NCBI GenBank assembly: GCA_007118495.1
Contig: SKRM01000024.1
Location: forward strand, 1-64,000
DNA: 64,000 nt
Direction of reading: 5' to 3'
DNA from: Bacteroidales bacterium
GTDB taxonomy: Bacteria; Bacteroidota; Bacteroidia; Bacteroidales; UBA7960
Below, in pieces: positions 3-9,228 of the stretch. Below the pieces are notes generated by a model that had not been told where the DNA came from, ran no database searches, and saw only the letters and a program-made list of their open reading frames with translations. Both the position numbers and the translations under genes were made by a program. The first letter of the stretch is position 1; each line of letters begins with the position of its first letter.

Positions 3-383
3 GGTAAGGTAGTTGTGGGCTGCGTAGAAGGAGAATTTCACCAGGTCGGGGCCAGAATGGTTGCAGACATGTTCGAGATAAAAGGATGGGATACCTGGTT
101 TCCGGGATCAAACGTCCCAACAGCCGAATTAATCCGCTATATAAACAAGGTTAATCCCGATCTGGTCGCGATATCTGCCAGCATTTATTTTCACCTGCCT
201 ATGCTGGCAAAAATGATGGATGAAATCATGTCAGCATTTCAGGGGTTGGACATACTTGTAGGAGGACAGGCATTCAGGCATGGTGGTATAAGTTTGTTAT
301 CCGCTTACCCGACAGCAAGCTTTATTAAAGACCTTCAGGAACTTGAAATATTCATAGATAATTATGCCAATGAAGATGCATGA
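3..383 (+). CDS. Cobalamin (B12)-binding domain protein, C-terminal part (5' end outside window)
   Basis: The reading frame is open to the left edge, so this is the C-terminal ~126 residues of a longer protein. The segment is a Rossmann-like B12-binding domain. An E-x-H-x-x-G motif (EFHQVG) supplies the histidine that would ligate cobalt from below. It is followed by the serine motif (AISASIY) and the GG motif (LVGGQAF), which normally line the nucleotide tail of cobalamin. The sequence after the histidine (ARMVADMFEIKGW) resembles the regulatory/photosensory B12 branch (CarH, LitR, AerR) more than methionine synthase or mutases; that is family knowledge applied by eye. The helical cap domain expected before it would lie outside the window. 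The gene overlaps the next by 20 nt, so the two are probably co-translated. Confidence 0.85.
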   Translation, partial: GKVVVGCVEGEFHQVGARMVADMFEIKGWDTWFPGSNVPTAELIRYINKVNPDLVAISASIYFHLPMLAKMMDEIMSAFQGLDILVGGQAFRHGGISLLSAYPTASFIKDLQELEIFIDNYANEDA

Positions 384-828
384 ACTAATAGAATCGGCCC
401 GGACACTGGGCCCATTCAGTGAAGATGATGCACTTGCCTATCAACGTTATGCCCCCCGTCTGGTTGCCCTGGTAAACGAACGGATGACCGAACGCGAAGA
501 TATCCATGATCTGCTGGGAGTAGCCTCACTGGAGCTCATGAGGGACAACCATGCCAATCATGCACGCTTTATTGGTTCAATCCTGAAAGCATTTCAGGCC
601 GAGGTGCTGGTCGAAACCATTATCTGGGTGCTCAGAACGTATAAAAGCAGGGGCATTTCTTCAGCATACTGGGCTGCCCAGCTTAACACGTGGCATATAG
701 TTATCAGTGAGACACTGAAAGAAGCAGAGGTCGCCAATGTACTTGAGCTTTATGCGTGGATACAGGTTCATCTGCCTGTATTTGACAAACTTGCACAAAT
801 GGAATCGGGGCAGGAACAAAACCTTTAA
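364..828 (+). CDS. Unrecognised small, probably all-helical protein in B12/kinase cluster
   Basis: I do not recognise a named family. The 154-residue product has no signal peptide or membrane segment and looks all alpha-helical. Its central part (around residues 65-110) has a dense aromatic/aliphatic pattern with the sequences TIIWVLRTYKSRG and AYWAAQLNTWH. It overlaps the B12-domain gene by 20 nt and is followed 11 nt later by a histidine kinase, so it very probably works with both. A role as a separate helical partner or cap of the cobalamin domain, or as a coupling protein between B12 domain and kinase, is inference only. Starts at 364, 370 and 376 (three ATGs in frame) are all possible; all lie inside the overlap. 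Confidence 0.75.
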   Translation: MPMKMHELIESARTLGPFSEDDALAYQRYAPRLVALVNERMTEREDIHDLLGVASLELMRDNHANHARFIGSILKAFQAEVLVETIIWVLRTYKSRGISSAYWAAQLNTWHIVISETLKEAEVANVLELYAWIQVHLPVFDKLAQMESGQEQNL

Positions 829-839
829 CAACCCAATCT

Positions 840-2015
840 ATGAAACAAATCTCACACAAGGTACTTTCAGCATGGTATGGCGTGATCAATGAAAGCGCCA
901 TCAAAAGTGAAGCCCTGTGTATTGCACTGTTTCATACGAACTCACGCAATTTCCTATTTGGCAACAAAGCATTTCTAAACCTATCGAAAGGTGATCCGGC
1001 ACTCAGTCTGATCAACCCCGATTTTAACACCCTGGCCGAAAATGTAACCAGTGAATCAGCTGACATACAAAACATTTTTGAAGGCCTACTCACTATAGGT
1101 GATGAAAAATCGCTGAACACAACCATTCAGGCCAGGGTATTTGAAAAGCAAGGTCAAATTTTGGTCGTTGGAGAAATTGATTTATTCAAGATCAACCAGC
1201 AGCACCAGATTTTGACCGGGCTGAACCGGGAGGTCAGCAACCTCCAACGCCAGCTTACCAAAGAAAAGATTCAGCTGGAGCGCGCCCTCAATGAGCTAAA
1301 AAAAGCCAACAACGAACTGGCCATTCTGAATGCAGAAAAAAACAGATTTCTGAACATGGCCGCCCATGACTTGCGCAATCCCATTTCAACGGCCATCTCC
1401 TATGCCGATCTTTTGATCAGAGATCGCGACAGTTACACAGAAGAACAAAGGATCTTGTTCTTGCGAAAAATGGAAGACAGGTTACAGTTTGCCATACGGT
1501 TGATGACTGAATTACTGGATGTCTCCAAGATCGAAGCGGGAACGGTTGAACTGGATAAGCGTGAACAGGATTTCACTACGTTGATCAGGCAGGTGGTCGA
1601 GTTCAACCAACTGATAGCCAACTACAAAAACATCAACATTGATTTGCATACCGGACCAGGTAAACATATCTTTCCTTTTGACAAAAATAAAATGGAACAG
1701 GTTCTCAACAACATCATCAGCAATGCCATCAAATATTCACCCCATAATAGCCACATAATAGTTCATGTGGATGCAGGCCAGCATACAGCCACCGTCTCTG
1801 TGAAAGACAATGGGCCAGGTATAAAACCAGAGGAATTACCCCTGGTGTTTGAGCCCTTTCAGAAAACGAGTAACAAACCAACGGCAGGAGAATCAAGCAC
1901 AGGCCTTGGCCTGGCAATTTCAAAAAAAATAGTGGAGCAACATGGGGGCAGCATACATGTTGACAGTGAATCCGGAAGGGGTTCAGTCTTTTATTTCAGT
2001 ATTCCTGTTTATTGA
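840..2015 (+). CDS. Cytoplasmic PAS-like sensor histidine kinase
   Basis: This is a 391-residue kinase without signal peptide or transmembrane helix, so the signal is intracellular. Residues ~20-115 look like a degenerate PAS sensor. Residues ~125-168 are a coiled coil. The DHp helix carries the phospho-acceptor His176 (AAHDLRNP). The ATPase domain has the N box near residues 288-296, a G1 box (DNGPG, ~323) and a G2 box (TGLGLAISKK, ~354). The gene lies 11 nt after the small helical protein and 30 nt before a hybrid kinase. No DNA-binding response regulator is present, so phosphate may pass to the receiver of the next gene or to a distant regulator (inference). Confidence 0.93.
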   Translation: MKQISHKVLSAWYGVINESAIKSEALCIALFHTNSRNFLFGNKAFLNLSKGDPALSLINPDFNTLAENVTSESADIQNIFEGLLTIGDEKSLNTTIQARVFEKQGQILVVGEIDLFKINQQHQILTGLNREVSNLQRQLTKEKIQLERALNELKKANNELAILNAEKNRFLNMAAHDLRNPISTAISYADLLIRDRDSYTEEQRILFLRKMEDRLQFAIRLMTELLDVSKIEAGTVELDKREQDFTTLIRQVVEFNQLIANYKNINIDLHTGPGKHIFPFDKNKMEQVLNNIISNAIKYSPHNSHIIVHVDAGQHTATVSVKDNGPGIKPEELPLVFEPFQKTSNKPTAGESSTGLGLAISKKIVEQHGGSIHVDSESGRGSVFYFSIPVY

Positions 2016-2045
2016 TCACACATCGGTAGGGAAAATTCAATAAAA

Positions 2046-4853
2046 ATGACCGAAACAGAAAGAAAACTCAGAGAAAGGGTCAAGGAACTCAGTTGCCTTT
2101 ATGCAATAAGTCAGGCCATGCTTTCTAAACTTTCACCAGAATCTTTTTCTGAGTTAGTAAAAAAAGAATTGGTAAACAGTTTGCAGTTTCCCGATGCAGC
2201 AAGGGTTGAGGTATTTGTCAACAAGACAAAAAGAAAAGAAGAACCAAACCAGTCATTCCATGCCAGCATCATGGTGCAAGGCCATGAAAGAGGTTTTATA
2301 AGCGCATATTACGACAAGCCAGGATTACAACTTCTACCTGAAGAACACAAGCTGATACAAAGCATCGCCCGCCTTGCTTCTTTGTGGCTTCAGGAGTTCG
2401 AAACCGAAAAACACAATTACAAACTGGCCCTTGAAGAAAGTGAAAAAAAATACAGGGAGCTGTTTGAACATGCAAGTGATGCCATCATTATCCTGTCTGG
2501 AGATAAGATCATTGACTGCAACCAACGTGCCGCTGTTTTATTTCGGGGCCTGAAAGATGATCTGTTGGGGCTTACCCCCCGGGAACTTTCACCCGACATC
2601 CAGCCTGATGGCAATAGTTCAGCAACCAAGGCCATGCGATTGATCCAACTCTCAGGCAAAGGCAAACCGGTCAGGTTTGAGTGGCAGCACAAAACCCTTG
2701 ACGGCCAGTTATTCGATGCTGAAATAAGTCTTCAGAAACTGGTTCTGCAAAACGAAAGCTTTCTATTATCTATTGTGCGCGATGTCTCAGACCGTAAAAA
2801 AGCAGAAAAGGAATTGGCGTCAGAGAAACATTTCTTTGAGCAGATGTTTCTGCAGTCAACCATCAGCACCCAGATACTAGACAAAGACGGCTGGTGTATC
2901 AGTATAAATCCGAAATTATCCCAGCTATTCGGTGTCAAACCTGAAGATATTGAAGGAAGAAAATACAATATCCTCAAAGATCAGGAGGTCATTGACAAAG
3001 GTGTTATTAAACACCTTGAGAAGGTTTTTAGCAAATTGAGGCCCGCATCATGGGAAGTTCATTTTGACATAGGCGCTGCTGCATCTTCACAACAGATCAA
3101 GGTAAGCTCACCGGTCTTGAAATGGTTTCGGAATTGGGCCTTCCCCATCACCGACCGCGAAGGAATACTGCAGTATGTGGTCATCCAGCACATGGACATC
3201 ACTGAAGAAAAAGAAAAAGTCCTGGCCCAGGATATTTTTTATCAGATCGCCAGCGCCTCAATAACCACCAAAAATCTGGAAGACCTGCTGGCAAGGGTAA
3301 GGTCAGAATTGGGAAGGTTGATTGATACCACCAACTTCTTTGCGGCCCTGTACGAAGAAGAAACAGGCATGTTATCGATTCCATTTATTAAAGACGATAA
3401 AGAAATAACAGACTGTTTGCCAGCCAGAGGGTCACTTTCTGGGCTTGTTATTGAGAAAAAGCAGACCCTCTTGCTAAAAAAAGAAGACATCCACAAATTG
3501 ATAGGCGACGGGCTCATCAATGCCACCGGAGAGGTTTCAGAAGTCTGGCTGGGGACACCGCTTTTGGTCGACAAAAAGGTGTTTGGTGTTATCGCAGTAC
3601 AGCATTATGAAAACCCCAATGCTTATGACGCAAAAAGTGTTGCTATGTTTGAGTTTGTCGGGAGCCAGATAAGCCTGGCCATTCAACGGAAACAACATAC
3701 CGACCAACTAAGAGAAGCCAAAACCAGGGCAGAACAAAGTGACAGGCTAAAAACGGCCTTTCTCAACAACCTGTCTCATGAAATACGCACTCCGCTGAAT
3801 GCCATCATGGGATTTTCAGAGGTATTATGTGATGGCAATCTGGCAGACGACAAGATGCGCCATATAACAACCATAATTCGGCAAAGTGGCTTGCAGTTGA
3901 TGTCGGTTATCGATGACATCATTGACATGTCGAGCATAGAAAGCGGAATGATGGAGGCCGATATGGAAGAAACCAATTTAAACAATATACTGGAGTTACT
4001 CTTCCATCAGTTTACACCCCAGGCCAAAGAAAAGTCTGTAGAACTGGTTTTACAAAAAAAGTTGCCGGCCCATGAAGCTTCAATCATTACCGACAAAACC
4101 AAAGTTACCCAGGTATTGACCAACCTTTTGCAAAATGCCCTGAAATTCACCGAAACAGGTATCATCGCCTATGGTTGCAAAAGAGAGAAGAATCAATTGA
4201 TGTTTTATGTGAAGGATACAGGTATTGGTATTGCCAAAGAAGATCAGCAAAAAATATTTGATCGTTTTACCCAGATTGAAACCATGCCTGCAGGCCAAAG
4301 GTCAGGTGTCGGACTGGGGTTGTCAATTTCCAGATCGTTTGTGGAGTTGCTGGGGGGTAGAATTTGGGTAGACTCCAGCCCGGGACAGGGGTCTGAATTT
4401 CACTTTGCGCTACCATGGATTCCGGCAAAATGGTCAGCAACCCACCAGGAGCAAGCAGATCCAATACAAAAGGATATTGCCGGTATGAGGATACTGGTGG
4501 CTGAAGATGAGATTCTTAACTATGAGCTTGTAAGGGAGATCTTGTCTATGCATGGGTTTGTGACTCTGCATGCAGTCAACGGTGAAGAAGCGGTAAGCAT
4601 CGTTCAAGAACGCCAGGATATTTCAATGGTATTGATGGATATCAAAATGCCTGTACTTGACGGACTGGAGGCAAGCAGATTAATCAAGGCCATAAAACCA
4701 GATCTGCCAATTGTAGCGCTGACAGCCCACGTCCTGCAAGGTGACCGTGAAAAAACGCTGGAAGCGGGCTGTGATGATTACCTCACCAAACCTGTTTCGA
4801 GAAAAATCCTTATTGATTGTATAGAGAAATACACTGGAAAATCAAGCTCTTGA
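2046..4853 (+). CDS. Hybrid sensor histidine kinase / response regulator (PAS-PAS-GAF-HisKA-HATPase-REC)
   Basis: The 935-residue protein has no transmembrane segment. An N-terminal region with a GAF-like look (1-120) is followed by a PAS domain (~133-255), a second PAS (~262-390), a GAF domain (~400-548) and a HisKA helix with His578 (LSHEIRTPLN). The ATPase domain follows with its N box near 690-700, G1 near 724 (DTGIGIA) and G2 near 754 (GVGLGLS). A C-terminal receiver has the acidic pair at 820-821 (AEDE), phospho-acceptor Asp865 (MDIKMP), Thr893 and Lys915 (LTKP). All catalytic residues are present, so autophosphorylation and internal transfer are expected. It is the last gene of the left-edge cluster; the RND operon behind it is convergent. 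Confidence 0.95.
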   Translation: MTETERKLRERVKELSCLYAISQAMLSKLSPESFSELVKKELVNSLQFPDAARVEVFVNKTKRKEEPNQSFHASIMVQGHERGFISAYYDKPGLQLLPEEHKLIQSIARLASLWLQEFETEKHNYKLALEESEKKYRELFEHASDAIIILSGDKIIDCNQRAAVLFRGLKDDLLGLTPRELSPDIQPDGNSSATKAMRLIQLSGKGKPVRFEWQHKTLDGQLFDAEISLQKLVLQNESFLLSIVRDVSDRKKAEKELASEKHFFEQMFLQSTISTQILDKDGWCISINPKLSQLFGVKPEDIEGRKYNILKDQEVIDKGVIKHLEKVFSKLRPASWEVHFDIGAAASSQQIKVSSPVLKWFRNWAFPITDREGILQYVVIQHMDITEEKEKVLAQDIFYQIASASITTKNLEDLLARVRSELGRLIDTTNFFAALYEEETGMLSIPFIKDDKEITDCLPARGSLSGLVIEKKQTLLLKKEDIHKLIGDGLINATGEVSEVWLGTPLLVDKKVFGVIAVQHYENPNAYDAKSVAMFEFVGSQISLAIQRKQHTDQLREAKTRAEQSDRLKTAFLNNLSHEIRTPLNAIMGFSEVLCDGNLADDKMRHITTIIRQSGLQLMSVIDDIIDMSSIESGMMEADMEETNLNNILELLFHQFTPQAKEKSVELVLQKKLPAHEASIITDKTKVTQVLTNLLQNALKFTETGIIAYGCKREKNQLMFYVKDTGIGIAKEDQQKIFDRFTQIETMPAGQRSGVGLGLSISRSFVELLGGRIWVDSSPGQGSEFHFALPWIPAKWSATHQEQADPIQKDIAGMRILVAEDEILNYELVREILSMHGFVTLHAVNGEEAVSIVQERQDISMVLMDIKMPVLDGLEASRLIKAIKPDLPIVALTAHVLQGDREKTLEAGCDDYLTKPVSRKILIDCIEKYTGKSSS

Positions 4854-4871: not shown

Positions 4872-6191
4872 TCAGAGATATTCCAGTATCCGACCTGAGA
4901 TACGTAACAATGAGATTTCAGCCAGTTTTGTCTGGTATTGTATGGAAACCAATCTTTCTTCGGCTTCAAGTAAACTCTTTTGCACCTCTCTGAGTTCCAA
5001 CCCTGACAATGCTCCCAAACGGTAACGCTCCATGGCAATTTCAAGGGTTTCGTAGGCGACAGACAGGTTATGGGTTTCCATCTCAACAAGTCGCAGGTTA
5101 TTCAGGTATACGTTATATGTCCTGAGCAAATCTGCTTTCAATGCATTTTCTGTATCCTCAATGCGCAGCCGGCTATTCTCAACCTCAATGGCTGCATTGC
5201 TCATGCGTCTGCGCTGGTTAAAACCATCAAAAATATTAACCCCTATCGTTACAGCATAATTCATCCCAAAAGTCTGTTGATCACTGAAAGCACCCGTCTG
5301 AAAGGTATTGTGTGAATAGCCATACCCTGTGCTAAAGTTTACATAGGGGTAATTACGCGAGGCCACGATGCGCTGATCCTGGACAGACAAGTCTTTAAAA
5401 CGTTGTGCCATGATCATAGAGGTGTTGTTTTCTCTGGCAGATGCAAGCAAGGTTTCATAAATAAGGATATCTCTCAATTGTATAACAGAATCGGCAGGCT
5501 CCAATCCACGACTCAGGTCATCTGATGCCATCAACTCGTGAAGCCGTATGCGTGATGCACGCACCACCTCTTCCTGTCTCCCCATCCTTGAACTGTCAGC
5601 ATTCAAAAATACTTCTGCCTGAAGCAATTGTAGCTTAGAGCCAGATCCCAGAAGGAAACGTTCTTCATCAATTCTCACCCTTTCTCTGGACAGCTCAACG
5701 GCAAACTGCAGATTTTTCAGCAGCCGCTTTTGTTGGATAAGATTAAAATACTCAGCAGCCAGGTTAGAAACCAGGTTCTCAACAGCCATCCTTGTATTCA
5801 ATTCACCCATATCTTTGAGGGTTTCAAGTCGCTCGTAGCTTGCCTGAACACGAAACCCGTCAAAAATTGTCCATCCAAGGCTCATATTTACATTGGCAAC
5901 CGTGTTGTGAATATTTCTCAACGAAGAGGTCTGCCCGTCAAAATCAGTGCGGTCAGTGCTGTTCCGGTTACCTGAATATTGACTACGCAGGTCAAGTGAG
6001 GGCAAAAAACCAGCGTTTCCGGGTGAATGGTTATTTGCAGATATCTCTTGCTGATTTCTGGTAACCTGCAAGGCGTAATTGTTCTCGAGCCCAAACGATA
6101 TGACTTCCTGCAAACTGATCAGCTGTTGCGAAAACAACCCATTAACCAATAAAGCGAATACAACACTAAGCGTCAAGCGTTTCATCATCAT
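4872..6191 (-). CDS. TolC-family outer-membrane efflux channel
   Basis: The 439-residue protein has an N-terminal signal peptide (LTLSVVFALLVNGLFSQQ) and two internally similar halves of long amphipathic helices with beta-strand segments (SLGWTIFDGFR, ITIGVNIFDGFNQRR), the pattern of the TolC/OEP family. It would form the trimeric outer-membrane and periplasmic duct of the pump encoded upstream. It is the third gene of the operon adaptor-pump-channel, and its start overlaps the pump gene by 26 nt. Three ATGs lie in tandem at the start (6191, 6188, 6185); which one is used cannot be decided here. Confidence 0.92.
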   Translation of the reverse strand: MMMKRLTLSVVFALLVNGLFSQQLISLQEVISFGLENNYALQVTRNQQEISANNHSPGNAGFLPSLDLRSQYSGNRNSTDRTDFDGQTSSLRNIHNTVANVNMSLGWTIFDGFRVQASYERLETLKDMGELNTRMAVENLVSNLAAEYFNLIQQKRLLKNLQFAVELSRERVRIDEERFLLGSGSKLQLLQAEVFLNADSSRMGRQEEVVRASRIRLHELMASDDLSRGLEPADSVIQLRDILIYETLLASARENNTSMIMAQRFKDLSVQDQRIVASRNYPYVNFSTGYGYSHNTFQTGAFSDQQTFGMNYAVTIGVNIFDGFNQRRRMSNAAIEVENSRLRIEDTENALKADLLRTYNVYLNNLRLVEMETHNLSVAYETLEIAMERYRLGALSGLELREVQKSLLEAEERLVSIQYQTKLAEISLLRISGRILEYL

Positions 6192-9100
6192 TTTTTATAT
6201 TCTTTGAATCTGAGGATATATAACTATAAACTGCCGGAACCACAAACAATGTGAGGAAAGTGGACAAAATCAGGCCTCCGATTACGGCCACACCCATTGA
6301 AATACGACCCTGGGCGCCTTCACCGAATCCAAGTGTCAGTGGCATAACACCCAAAATGGTAGACAGGCTGGTCATCAGAATTGGACGGAACCGGGCAGCT
6401 GCCGCAAATTTTATGGCTTCAAGCTTTTGCATGCCCGCCTGTTTCCGCTGGTTGGCAAATTCAACCATCAGAATACCGTTTTTCGAAACCAAGCCTATGA
6501 GCATGATAATACCGATCTGGCTAAAAATATTCATGGTTATACCAAAATACCAGAGAAAGACCATGGCACCTGTAATGGCAAGGGGGACAGTCATCATAAC
6601 AATCAAGGGGTCTTTGAAGCTTTCAAACTGAGCCGAAAGAACCAGGAAAATCAGAATAATGGCCAGTACAAAAGCAAAAATCAGGCTTGAGGAACTTTCT
6701 TCAAAATCTTTGGAATCGCCGGTCAGGGCAGTTCTGAAAGTTTCGTCCAGCACTTCATCAGATATTCTGTACATTTCATTCAATCCTTCACTGATAGTCC
6801 GACCCGGTGCCAGGTTTGCCGAAACCGTTGCAGATACAAAGCGATTGTATCGAAACAGCTGCGGAGGTGCAGTATGTTCGTGCAAGCTGACCAGGTTGTC
6901 CAATTGTACCATGTCACCGTTATTGCTTCTAACATAAAGTGACTTCAGGTCAAGGGGGGTATTCCTGTCTTCTCTGGCAAGTTCACCCAATACCTGATAC
7001 TGTTTCCCATGCATAAAGAAGTATCCGAAACGTTGTCCGCTGAGGGCCAGCTGTAGCGTTTGCCCGATATTCTGCGTAGAAACTCCAAGGGCATTGGCCT
7101 TATCCCGGTCAATATGAATCTGCATTTCAGGCAGGTTGAAACGAAGGTTCAGATCAGGAGCCTGCAGAATGGAGCTTTCATTGGCTTTTTCCATGAATTC
7201 AGGAAGCACATCTCTCAACCTCTCAATGCTTTGTGCCTGAATTACGAATTGTACAGGTCGGCCACCTCTTCTTCCACCAAAAGTTGACTGCTGGTTTACA
7301 AAGGCTGCTGCTCTGGTCTTATCCCTCAACGCCAATGACATCCTGTCAGCAATTTCTTGCTGACTCGCTTCGCGTTCATTGGGTTTGACAAGGTTAACCC
7401 TGATATTTCCTCTGCCGCCAAAAATCATGGTGGTAATGGTTTCCCGCTCGGGAATCAGTTCTTCTGCCAGCTCAGCCACATCTTCAATATAGTCACGCAT
7501 GAATTCATATGTAGTTCCTTCAGGCATCCTTGAACTGATGGAAATCTGGCTACGGTCTTCAAGGGGAGCCATTTCGGCCGGAATGTTTATATACAGCAAC
7601 ACCACAAGACCTCCGGCTGCAAAAAGGATGACGATGGCAAGCCACCTTCGTTGCAGAAAACTGTCCAGGGCATTTTTATACGTATTGTTCATTGACTGGA
7701 AAAAACCTTCAGTTTTGTGATAGAACCATCCCCTGGTTTTTCGCTGTTTCAATATTTTGGTTGATATCATGGGCGTAAAACTCAGGGCCACAAAACTGGA
7801 AATGGCCACTGCTCCGGCAATAACAATACTAAACTCTCTGAACAACCTGCCTGTCATACCCTCGAGGAACACGATGGGAAAGAAAACAGCCACCAGTGTA
7901 ATGGTAGTGGCGATGATGGCAAAAAAGATCTCCTTTGCTCCTGCCAGACCAGCTTCAACCGGTGTCATGCCTTGCTCAATCTTGACATATATGTTTTCCA
8001 TCATAACAATGGCATCATCAACCACAAGTCCGATGGCAAGCACAATGGCAAGCAGGGTCAGCACATTGATTGAAAAACCTGCTATATACATGATGAAAAA
8101 TGATCCCACTAGTGAAATGGGGATAACCAAAACAGGTATAATGGTGGTCCTCCAGTCACGTAGAAACAAGAATATGATGATCACAACCAGAACAAAGGCT
8201 ATGAAAATGGTATTCCTTACCTCTCGTATGGATGAGCGGATATATTCGGTATTATCAAATCCGATATTCAGGCTGACATCATCAGGAAGATCCCTTTTGA
8301 TCATTTCAAGCCTGCGGTATACCTCATCTGTAATTTCAATATGGTTTGACCCGGGTTGGGGAACAATGGCGTTTCCAACAAGCGGGACGCCATCTCTCCG
8401 TACGATACCGCGAAGGTCTTCGGGGCCCAGCTCAGCCCGTCCTATATCCCTGAACCTGACAATTCTTCCTTCACGCTCACTAAGGATCATATTGTTGAAT
8501 TCTTCGGGGGTTGACATTAAGCCAATGGTCCTGATGGTCAACTCAACAGTATTTCCTTCAATGCGGCCTGAAGGTAACTCAACATTTTCTCTTTGCAGCG
8601 CATTGCGAACATCCAGCGGTGTAAGGCCATAACCGGCCAGCTTGACCGGATCAAGCCACAGTCGCATGGCATATCGTTTCTGACCCCAAATATGGATTCC
8701 ACTCACCCCCTCAATGGTCTGTAACTGTTCTGCCAGGGTCAACTCGGCAATTTCAGAAAGTTCGAGAAGGTTACGGGTCTCGCTTTCAACCGTTACAAAC
8801 ATAATGGGGGTAGCATCCGCATCAGCCTTTGAAACAATGGGCGGATCAACGTCCCTCGGAAGCCTTCGCTGTGCCTGCGCAACCTTATCCCGCACATCAT
8901 TGGCAGCGGTTTCCATATCTACGGTTAATTCAAACTCAATGGTTATATTGCTGCTCCCCTGTCTGCTCACACTTGTCAGCGAGCGGATACCAGGCACGGC
9001 GTTTATGGCCTGTTCAAGGGGCTCGGTAATCTGTGTCTCAATCACATCTGAGTTGGCTCCCGGATAAGAAGTACGTACTGAGATGATTGGAGGATCAACA

Positions 9101-9216
9101 CTGGGGAACTCCCTTACGCCAAGAAAGGTCATCCCGATTAAACCAAACAGCAAAATCAGGATGGTAAAAACAGAGGCCAGTACAGGCCTTTTGATACTTA
9201 ACGACGATAGACTCAT
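6166..9216 (-). CDS. RND-family efflux transporter (HAE1/AcrB type), inner membrane
   Basis: The product (1016 residues) has the AcrB-family architecture: an N-terminal transmembrane helix (PVLASVFTILILLFGLIG), a large periplasmic pore/docking region, a six-helix bundle, a second periplasmic region and a second helix bundle. The proton-relay Asp-Asp pair is visible in GLVVDDAIVMM, and the second-half counterpart LIGLVSKNGILMVEF is typical. It would export hydrophobic compounds or lipophilic molecules using the proton gradient, with the adaptor and TolC channel in the same operon. An upstream TTG (9222) is also in frame, but ATG 9216 gives the usual short cytoplasmic N terminus. Substrate cannot be inferred. 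No TetR/MarR-type regulator lies beside it. Confidence 0.95.
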   Translation of the reverse strand: MSLSSLSIKRPVLASVFTILILLFGLIGMTFLGVREFPSVDPPIISVRTSYPGANSDVIETQITEPLEQAINAVPGIRSLTSVSRQGSSNITIEFELTVDMETAANDVRDKVAQAQRRLPRDVDPPIVSKADADATPIMFVTVESETRNLLELSEIAELTLAEQLQTIEGVSGIHIWGQKRYAMRLWLDPVKLAGYGLTPLDVRNALQRENVELPSGRIEGNTVELTIRTIGLMSTPEEFNNMILSEREGRIVRFRDIGRAELGPEDLRGIVRRDGVPLVGNAIVPQPGSNHIEITDEVYRRLEMIKRDLPDDVSLNIGFDNTEYIRSSIREVRNTIFIAFVLVVIIIFLFLRDWRTTIIPVLVIPISLVGSFFIMYIAGFSINVLTLLAIVLAIGLVVDDAIVMMENIYVKIEQGMTPVEAGLAGAKEIFFAIIATTITLVAVFFPIVFLEGMTGRLFREFSIVIAGAVAISSFVALSFTPMISTKILKQRKTRGWFYHKTEGFFQSMNNTYKNALDSFLQRRWLAIVILFAAGGLVVLLYINIPAEMAPLEDRSQISISSRMPEGTTYEFMRDYIEDVAELAEELIPERETITTMIFGGRGNIRVNLVKPNEREASQQEIADRMSLALRDKTRAAAFVNQQSTFGGRRGGRPVQFVIQAQSIERLRDVLPEFMEKANESSILQAPDLNLRFNLPEMQIHIDRDKANALGVSTQNIGQTLQLALSGQRFGYFFMHGKQYQVLGELAREDRNTPLDLKSLYVRSNNGDMVQLDNLVSLHEHTAPPQLFRYNRFVSATVSANLAPGRTISEGLNEMYRISDEVLDETFRTALTGDSKDFEESSSSLIFAFVLAIILIFLVLSAQFESFKDPLIVMMTVPLAITGAMVFLWYFGITMNIFSQIGIIMLIGLVSKNGILMVEFANQRKQAGMQKLEAIKFAAAARFRPILMTSLSTILGVMPLTLGFGEGAQGRISMGVAVIGGLILSTFLTLFVVPAVYSYISSDSKNIKNDDETLDA

Positions 9217-9228
9217 TGACAAATATTA

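Follow-up and report, generated by a model that had tools for sequence, protein, structure and literature searches.

The B12-binding protein, the small helical protein and the first histidine kinase encoded at the start of this contig probably form a photocobilin whose components are encoded by separate genes and which is linked to a two-component kinase. This reading is based on a conserved gene order, on the motifs and on homology to photocobilins, together with globin and PAS folds taken from predicted models; from these we infer that cobalamin is bound, that docking takes place in trans, that light is the signal and that the sensor controls the kinase. In the window, that is, the whole stretch of 64,000 nucleotides analysed (G000:C1:1-64000, where base 1 is the contig start), four open reading frames lie on the plus strand at 3-383, 364-828, 840-2015 and 2046-4853. 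The coordinates confirm the layout given in an earlier note on this DNA, with a 20-nt overlap between the B12 and globin genes followed by gaps of 11 nt and 30 nt. The absence of membrane segments from the four proteins was likewise borne out, as a hydropathy scan found no membrane-like 19-residue stretch in any of the products (maximum 19-residue means of 1.42, 1.43, 0.96 and 1.38, where an RND pump used as control gave 3.03).

The first frame (3-383, plus strand) encodes the C-terminal part, 126 residues, of a protein of the cap plus B12-binding photoreceptor type, and its B12-binding domain scored 62.3 bits against the Pfam cut-off of 32.1 (PF02310). The domain is thus present as the earlier note had it, but the frame is truncated at its 5' side by the contig start, so that "stand-alone" cannot be read from the window. 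Contig C65 carries at its end the probable N-terminal cap half (G000:C65:17843-18115, locus L065). This half matches the homologous B12 protein P0002 with an E-value of 6.6e-23, has the same upstream neighbour as in relatives and, judged against P0002, stops no more than a few bases from the start of C1. The expected EFHQVG motif is present at 33-50 (plus strand) and represents ExHxxG, whose histidine is the expected lower-axial ligand of cobalt; ExHxxG occurs in 35/35 B12 proteins scanned. W-x9-EH, which reads WAVNKITVAEEH on C65 of this genome, occurs in all 33 of these proteins that cover the site, L028 and L041 beginning beyond it. Read by eye, the gene itself carries the full CarH-type signature GxxW, EH, GxxH and GxxxP, as GELW and EH on C65 and as GEFH and GSNVP in the window, where GxxH is not strict across homologues (TEFH in L014). 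When P0002 was compared with solved structures, the four best relatives were all light sensors, namely 8j2w and 8j2x (E 2.2e-22), 8jbs (CtMerR, 1.6e-19) and 8j2y (6.7e-15), followed at lower rank by MetH (5.9e-10) and CarH (2.4e-7). No DNA-binding domain was found in the full-length relative. The genome also encodes an adenosyltransferase, an ORF named from its sequence as methylmalonyl-CoA mutase and a separate MerR-B12 protein (L066:9265-10149).

The second frame (364-828, plus strand) encodes SP154, a stand-alone protein of 154 residues. Described before as an unrecognised helical protein, it is by predicted model and profile comparison a photoglobin-type globin and not an unknown kind. The AF2 model (pLDDT 93.6) has a globin fold and superimposes on smURFP (Z 13.0, rmsd 2.8, 123 aligned), allophycocyanin (Z 12.9, rmsd 2.4, 117 aligned) and the photocobilin globin domain of 8j2w (Z 11.2, rmsd 2.7, 115 aligned), where Z below about 13 can mean just a common helical arrangement, and haem-globin sensors equal the bilin globins in fold score (DosC, Z 13.7). 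Foldseek E-values were all above 0.001, the best being 0.023. By hhalign, the alignment A1 (27 rows of 39 loci) matched the fused globin-B12 group at 99.9% and canonical photoglobins including SasPcob at 90.8% (E 1.2e-6). The photoglobin link passes via fused intermediates; the SP154 sequence gave no useful match in the PDB (four chance-level rows) and the 27-row profile gave zero. Pfam returned a sub-threshold sigma-70 match only, NCBIfam nothing, and a scan of viral_contigs zero relatives. The B12 cap is also helical, and SP154 was considered as a second cap; this was ruled out because the fused protein L054 carries globin, cap and cobalamin-binding domain in order. SP154 forms a distinct clade with support of 100/98 in a rough tree with long branches and unsettled bootstrap.

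The bilin-motif site was located by alignment with photoglobin and allophycocyanin. The site of the bilin motif CxRD/CxQD is altered to M59-x-D-N62-H-x-N-H (538-561, plus strand), and M59 and N62 stand in place of its Cys and Asp in 39/39 loci, comprising the 27 of A1 and 12 others whose motif was read separately (L015, L017, L021, L022, L035, L043, L044, L046, L047, L050, L053 and L054). Within A1, Asn65 is conserved in 27/27 rows and His63 and His66 in 26/27 each. Trp88 (625-627, plus strand) aligns with SasPcob Trp296, which touches the corrin as well as the D ring of biliverdin (PMC10979010, excerpt), and is kept in 38/38 readable proteins (27/27 in A1 and 11 of the remaining 12, as L053 ends short of the site). 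The position aligned with the biliverdin-binding Asp270 of SasPcob is Asn in 27/27 rows of A1. In the excerpted text of PMC10979010, AbPcob also lacks this Asp, so the residue may not define the photocobilin family. Proteins as long as the fused form occur in G015, G011, G058 and G047, and those of G015 and G058 retain the Asp. Haem oxygenase above the cut-off was found in 0/13 and 0/24 genomes, which indirectly suggests that the globin may function without biliverdin; that it carries biliverdin is doubtful. As an anaerobic source of bilin, the HutW/ChuW model matched in 12/13 genomes and reached its cut-off in 0/13 (best 222.4 against 400 bits); these matches are presumably HemN/HemW relatives.

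The third frame (840-2015, plus strand) encodes a soluble sensor histidine kinase with a predicted PAS fold (residues ~1-120), a helical linker, HisKA and HATPase, based on Pfam, AF2 and Foldseek. Pfam gave no PAS domain at E<=1 in this protein, and a PAS model reached E 0.017 in just 1/22 homologues. Residues 1-122 were modelled with a pLDDT of 91.4 and their best Foldseek rows were PAS-type, so that the label "PAS kinase" holds by fold rather than by Pfam. The fourth frame (2046-4853, plus strand) encodes a hybrid histidine kinase with PAS, PAS, GAF, HisKA, HATPase and receiver domains in Pfam. The hybrid-kinase label agrees with the earlier note, but the gene is not a conserved member of the cluster: few loci have a related gene after the cluster (L014, L017, L041, L048 and, as a fragment, L015), where it is the next gene in two genus relatives (L014, L017). 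Since it is absent from most loci, we left the hybrid kinase out of the conserved core.

To examine the neighbourhood, 39 distinct loci were compared, with L029 counted together with L014 since their contigs agree in length and content; other loci may still stem from one species. The B12 gene adjoins the globin gene, lies one gene off or is fused to it in 36/37 loci with a readable upstream side, and a related kinase is present in 34/36 readable loci, contig or locus ends having removed L015 and L021 from the former count and L022, L051 and L053 from the latter. Among the kinases, L038 has broken frames, L018 is represented by its N-terminal part alone and L054 was matched by the hybrid-kinase query only. 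The proposed signal cluster is thereby conserved in its B12 domain, small protein and first kinase. Homologues of the small protein lying mostly away from B12 domains would have spoken against the cluster in the earlier note; they do not lie so, but there are exceptions. In L052 the globin is an orphan with neither partner near, in a genome whose B12 matches lie elsewhere and are weaker (best E 6.3e-13), and the relatives G021 and G057 carry the B12 gene and the kinase but no globin. In G017, the globin lies at a contig end and a B12 protein of this type was not found. Distances of SP154 and the B12 protein correlated with r 0.71 over 20/39 loci, and 0/5000 permutations were as high; both the conserved neighbourhood and this correlation reflect shared descent too. 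Natural fusions of this globin with cap and cobalamin-binding domain occur in L054, L071 and Ilyobacter polytropus. In L054 and L071 a kinase ORF comes next, and in Ilyobacter the following gene encodes GGDEF. Fused photoglobin-B12 proteins of the same order and genus (L115, L116) lie directly upstream of a related kinase. A 660-residue ORF in L040, seemingly a kinase-B12 fusion, looks like frameshift read-through and was set aside. The hosts are mostly Bacteroidota, with some Spirochaetota, Desulfobacteraceae and Lentisphaerota; cultured members include Geofilum rubicundum, Lutibacter sp. HS1-25 and Oligosphaera ethanolica. We take anaerobes to be among the cluster-bearing organisms.

Based on these features, we propose that in the dark the B12 protein would bind adenosylcobalamin base-off/His-on, with the cap Trp and Glu-His closing over the adenosyl group and the protein dimerising. 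The globin would dock on the corrin edge via the invariant Trp88, like the fused globin domain in SasPcob. Once green light, or departure of the adenosyl group, breaks the Co-C bond, the cap and the dimer would change, which would alter the contact with the kinase PAS domain and the autophosphorylation of the kinase. A more specific version, which we hold tentatively, is a bilin-free two-gene photocobilin that would serve as a two-component kinase sensor, mainly in Bacteroidota but with related systems in anaerobes. In this version, the change from Cys/Asp to Met/Asn and the lack of a detected haem oxygenase are taken to mean that biliverdin was given up; the globin would be a detachable lid on the corrin or bind another ligand via N-H-x-N-H, and photolysis of adenosylcobalamin would lead to globin release and a change in histidine phosphorylation.

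The earlier note had named light and alkyl-cobalamin availability as possible signals. Since all four top-ranking solved relatives of the B12 protein are photoreceptors, the sequences point to light with an adenosylcobalamin chromophore more than to cobalamin supply. It is rather unlikely that the cluster senses the form or supply of cobalamin (adenosylcobalamin against hydroxocobalamin or none), with the kinase reporting adenosylcobalamin status, although the same Trp and Glu-His contacts would give adenosyl-specific binding and the signature residues bind adenosylcobalamin as such (PMC11796333, excerpt). To judge from inferred habitats, many of the hosts probably live in sediments or digesters, where light may be scarce. 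The exemplar proteins with this signature were nevertheless light-responsive in the excerpts of PMC11796333 and PMC10979010.

Less likely still, the ligand of the globin would be haem or a different tetrapyrrole that senses gas or redox state, and oxygen or redox state would be integrated with B12 by the cluster. DosC, BpeGReg and HemAT fit the SP154 fold as well as bilin globins do, and the near-invariant His63 and His66 would suit haem. However, these two residues occupy the site of the CxRD bilin motif, in helix 56-75 according to the AF2 model and alignment positions, and the following helix (79-95) has no conserved His (1/27 rows at 91; residue 96 is His in 12/27). Profile similarity of SP154 also runs to photoglobins, and that of the Azospirillum photoglobin to allophycocyanin (E 1.8e-6). 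Very improbable is a methyl-transfer corrinoid protein of the MtaC/MtbC kind with kinases merely adjacent: the sub-threshold NCBIfam matches of the B12 protein to corrinoid families fall far under their cut-offs (best 38.1 against 215.3 bits), as does that to CarH (47.9 against 400), and both the co-occurring kinase (34/36) and the photoreceptor motif (33/33) speak against it.

The outputs described for B12 photoreceptors in the excerpted sources are DNA binding and diguanylate cyclase. A conserved B12-globin-kinase operon would place adenosylcobalamin photochemistry atop phosphorelays in Bacteroidota as well as in some Spirochaetota, Desulfobacteraceae and Lentisphaerota. With the globin partner in its own gene, the putative photosensor can be tested in trans, and the occurrence of both split and fused forms, together with loss of the bilin Asp, lets the role of a photoglobin without bilin be addressed directly.

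The photoglobins of Schneider et al. 2022 are said to be non-haem globins that go together with domains for B12 binding and signalling, and SP154 would be of the same type. While photoglobins have a CXQD motif (PMC10151467, excerpt), SP154 has neither this motif nor a fused B12 domain. BBAG-2 occurs in three-gene clusters of globin, B12-binding protein and pre-2, binds biliverdin, has an RGMC motif and belongs to clusters tied to haem oxygenase (PMC10151467, excerpt). Those clusters and the present one share a globin gene that stands alone next to the gene of a B12-binding protein, whereas here a kinase gene adjoins the pair. CtMerR (8JBS) and CarH/LitR share the cap and cobalamin-binding domain with the light-response signature, but the full-length relative here lacks their DNA-binding domain. 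The earlier note had seen novelty in a different output; a B12 photosensor with a diguanylate cyclase is known (PMC10979010, excerpt), so a non-DNA output alone is not new. The photocobilins SasPcob (8J2W/8J2X) and AbDPcob (8J2Y) share the cap and Rossmann B12 domain with W..EH and ExH, and a globin paired with the B12 module whose Trp, in photocobilin, touches corrin and bilin (PMC10979010, excerpt). In contrast to their single chain, the globin here has its own overlapping gene and a distinct clade, fusion being seen only in relatives; compared with SasPcob, the Trp296 equivalent is retained, Asp270 is replaced by Asn, haem oxygenase was not found in the genomes searched and a histidine kinase probably serves as output in trans. 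Photocobilins, photoglobins and separate globin and B12 clusters are already published, and the split globin/B12 pair with a kinase is a variant of them.

The four ORFs of the cluster lie on the forward strand at 3-383 (B12-binding domain), 364-828 (SP154, 154 residues), 840-2015 (first kinase) and 2046-4853 (second, hybrid kinase), with an overlap of 20 nt and then gaps of 11 and 30 nt, and none of the four proteins (0/4) contains a membrane-like stretch, as the earlier note had described. SP154, the small helical protein that the note regarded as unknown, could be assigned, since its AlphaFold2 model has a globin fold and its profile points to kinship with photoglobins. The model, built from 27 sequences, was confident (pLDDT 93.6), and Foldseek searches with it returned globins and phycobiliproteins with probabilities up to 1.00 and a best E of only 0.023. 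In VIA-align, the Z-scores were 13.7 for DosC, 13.0 for smURFP, 12.9 for allophycocyanin, 11.3 for RsbR and 11.2 (rmsd 2.7 over 115) for the globin domain of 8j2w, the photocobilin SasPcob, where values below about 13 may reflect a mere common helical arrangement. On the model, haem and bilin globins are inseparable by fold alone, and the alignments make sequence the more telling guide to the kind of globin. The SP154 profile matched at 99.9% in hhalign to a group of fused proteins, comprising a 366-aa fusion of an SP154-like globin, cap and B12-binding domain followed by a hybrid kinase in an uncultured bacterium (L054), a similar fusion (L071), and a fusion of the L054 type on a large plasmid of Ilyobacter polytropus (pILYOP01, L100:5968-8011), where the next, overlapping gene encodes GGDEF. 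I. polytropus is a cultured bacterium in which a globin of the SP154 clade is accompanied by a different output. In one comparison against the canonical fusions of Azospirillum thermophilum and L072-L074 together with SasPcob, the match was 90.8% (E 1.2e-6). The Azospirillum fusion precedes a hypothetical gene and then a histidine kinase; comparison of its globin gave E 1.3e-4 for 8j2w and E 1.8e-6 for allophycocyanin. A rough tree placed the SP154 type and its fused kin apart from the canonical type (support 100/98).

SP154 homologues were found in 9/59 genomes of the relatives set and 5/395 of the phylum sample, each count including the window genome, and genome_contigs contributed 26 places, for a total of 39 distinct loci (L029 repeats L014 and was counted once). 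Most of the named hosts belong to Bacteroidota; Spirochaetota, Desulfobacteraceae and Oligosphaera are also represented. As the loci were fetched by SP154 alone, the neighbouring genes, surveyed with profiles against all six-frame ORFs, are independent evidence. Of the 37 loci whose upstream side could be read, 36 have a B12 gene next to SP154, separated from it by one gene (L020 and L028) or fused with it (L054); the sole exception is L052, whose upstream stretch contains a single short run of N besides other ORFs. A related kinase (phmmer E <= 1e-6 to the first or second kinase of the window) was present in 34/36 readable loci, the exceptions being L021 and L052. The orphan SP154 of L052 (8001-8468) belongs to a spirochaete; neither a B12 gene nor this kinase occurs in the 14.5 kb fetched, and weaker B12 matches lie elsewhere in its genome. 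With start codons as set by the ORF finder, the gap between the B12 gene and SP154 was -32 to +18 nt in 19 of the 20 loci measured; at L020 the kinase lies between them. Across 20 of the 39 loci, protein distances correlated between SP154 and B12 (r 0.71), SP154 and kinase (r 0.69) and B12 and kinase (r 0.84), each with 0/5000 permutations as high, and shared species history contributes to these values. The association is looser from B12 to SP154 than from SP154 to B12. The full-length B12 protein of L014 (P0002) matched at E <= 1e-15 in 14/59 relatives, four with fused-length ORFs and ten with a stand-alone B12 protein; in two of these ten the B12 gene directly precedes the kinase and SP154 is absent (G021, 68% complete; G057, 99%). 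In G017, SP154 lies at a contig end and no B12 match of the P0002 type was found in the genome.

The first ORF had been described as a stand-alone B12 domain. The B12 assignment held, and the ORF is not a complete gene but a truncated 3' part, because the window opens at base 1 of contig C1 in a draft genome of 2.63 Mb. When this genome was searched with P0002, residues 97-214 matched at C1:6-362 and residues 10-88 at C65:17861-18100, 17 bases short of the end of C65. The preceding gene on C65, which we identify as cysS, shares 73-74% identity with the ORF that in L014, L017 and L022 comes before the B12 gene; therefore, C65 and C1 are very probably neighbouring contigs. A full-length relative has a helical cap (PF02607) and a Rossmann domain (PF02310), and Pfam found no DNA-binding domain in it. 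The best solved relatives of P0002 were the light sensors 8j2w/8j2x (photocobilin, E 2.2e-22), 8jbs (CtMerR, 1.6e-19) and 8j2y (photocobilin, 6.7e-15), all ahead of MetH (5.9e-10) and CarH (2.4e-7). The cap motif W-x9-EH, written W-(10)x-EH for identical residues in the photocobilin paper (PMC10979010), occurs in 33/33 B12 relatives whose reading spans the site and in the C65 half as WAVNKITVAEEH, and ExHxxG in 35/35. All four elements that PMC11796333 gives as the signature of light-responsive modules (GxxW, EH, GxxH and GxxxP) are present in the B12 gene of the window genome, spread over C65 and C1. This genome has a second B12 sensor, a 294-aa CarH/LitR-like MerR-type regulator (L066:9265-10149, contig C17) in which W-x9-EH and ExHxxG were both recognised by eye, adjoined by a 165-aa ORF resembling a sigma factor.

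In the globin pocket, CVED of Azospirillum aligns to CLRD of allophycocyanin and, gap-free, to M59-R60-D61-N62 of SP154, so that Met replaces Cys and Asn replaces Asp of the bilin motif in 27/27 aligned sequences. In SasPcob, Asp270 makes the key biliverdin contacts and Trp296 contacts the biliverdin D ring and the corrin (PMC10979010). W88, the counterpart of Trp296, is present in 27/27, and the 12 loci outside the alignment agree on Met, Asn and Trp, L053 being cut before the Trp. The loss of Asp is not limited to the SP154 clade: AbPcob, another photocobilin, has His there and binds biliverdin weakly (PMC10979010), and the canonical fusions L072-L074 have His, Asn and His. Haem oxygenase exceeded the Pfam cut-off in 0/13 and 0/24 genomes (five of the 13 are <90% complete), with sub-cut-off matches in 2/13 and 3/24, whereas 3/14 control genomes exceeded the cut-off; HutW exceeded its own cut-off in 0/13 genomes and 1/14 controls. 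Biliverdin could also be imported. Two genomes of the same order as the window genome, one of the same genus, encode a fused photoglobin-cap-B12 protein that keeps the Asp, directly upstream of a related kinase (L115 in G015, L116 in G058). G011 and G047 have matches of similar length.

The first kinase contains HisKA and HATPase domains. The PAS domain claimed for it was not found by Pfam at E <= 1, and PAS_9 was matched in 1/22 homologues; the claim fared better in the model, where residues 1-122 form a confidently predicted (pLDDT 91.4), PAS-like fold. The best Foldseek rows for this region were PAS, LOV, PYP or PAS-containing proteins (lowest E 0.005), and at least two of the best 50 (rows 39 and 47) are not PAS-related. 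A hybrid kinase is the next gene in the window, L014 and L017, and does not generally follow the cluster. Convergent to the cluster, reverse-strand ORFs at 4872-9222 resemble a TolC-type outer membrane protein and an RND efflux pump; L015 has two ORFs of the same sizes beyond the kinase.

With gene order, motifs and homology observed and the folds seen as models, we propose that the B12 protein would bind adenosylcobalamin, that the globin would dock in trans on the corrin edge through W88, that green light or adenosyl loss would be the trigger, and that the PAS domain of the kinase would receive the signal. An adenosyltransferase and a probable methylmalonyl-CoA mutase encoded in the window genome suggest that adenosylcobalamin is available in this host. 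The two genomes with a B12-kinase pair and no globin suggest an essential sensing role for the B12 protein and a modulating one for the globin.

Among the entries listed in the literature searched, none names a split B12-globin-kinase operon. The photoglobin paper reportedly describes B12 and signalling gene neighbourhoods, and part of the present finding may therefore already be published. Photocobilins and photoglobins are already known, as is a cluster of separate globin and B12 genes, that of BBAG-2, which is accompanied by haem oxygenase (PMC10151467).
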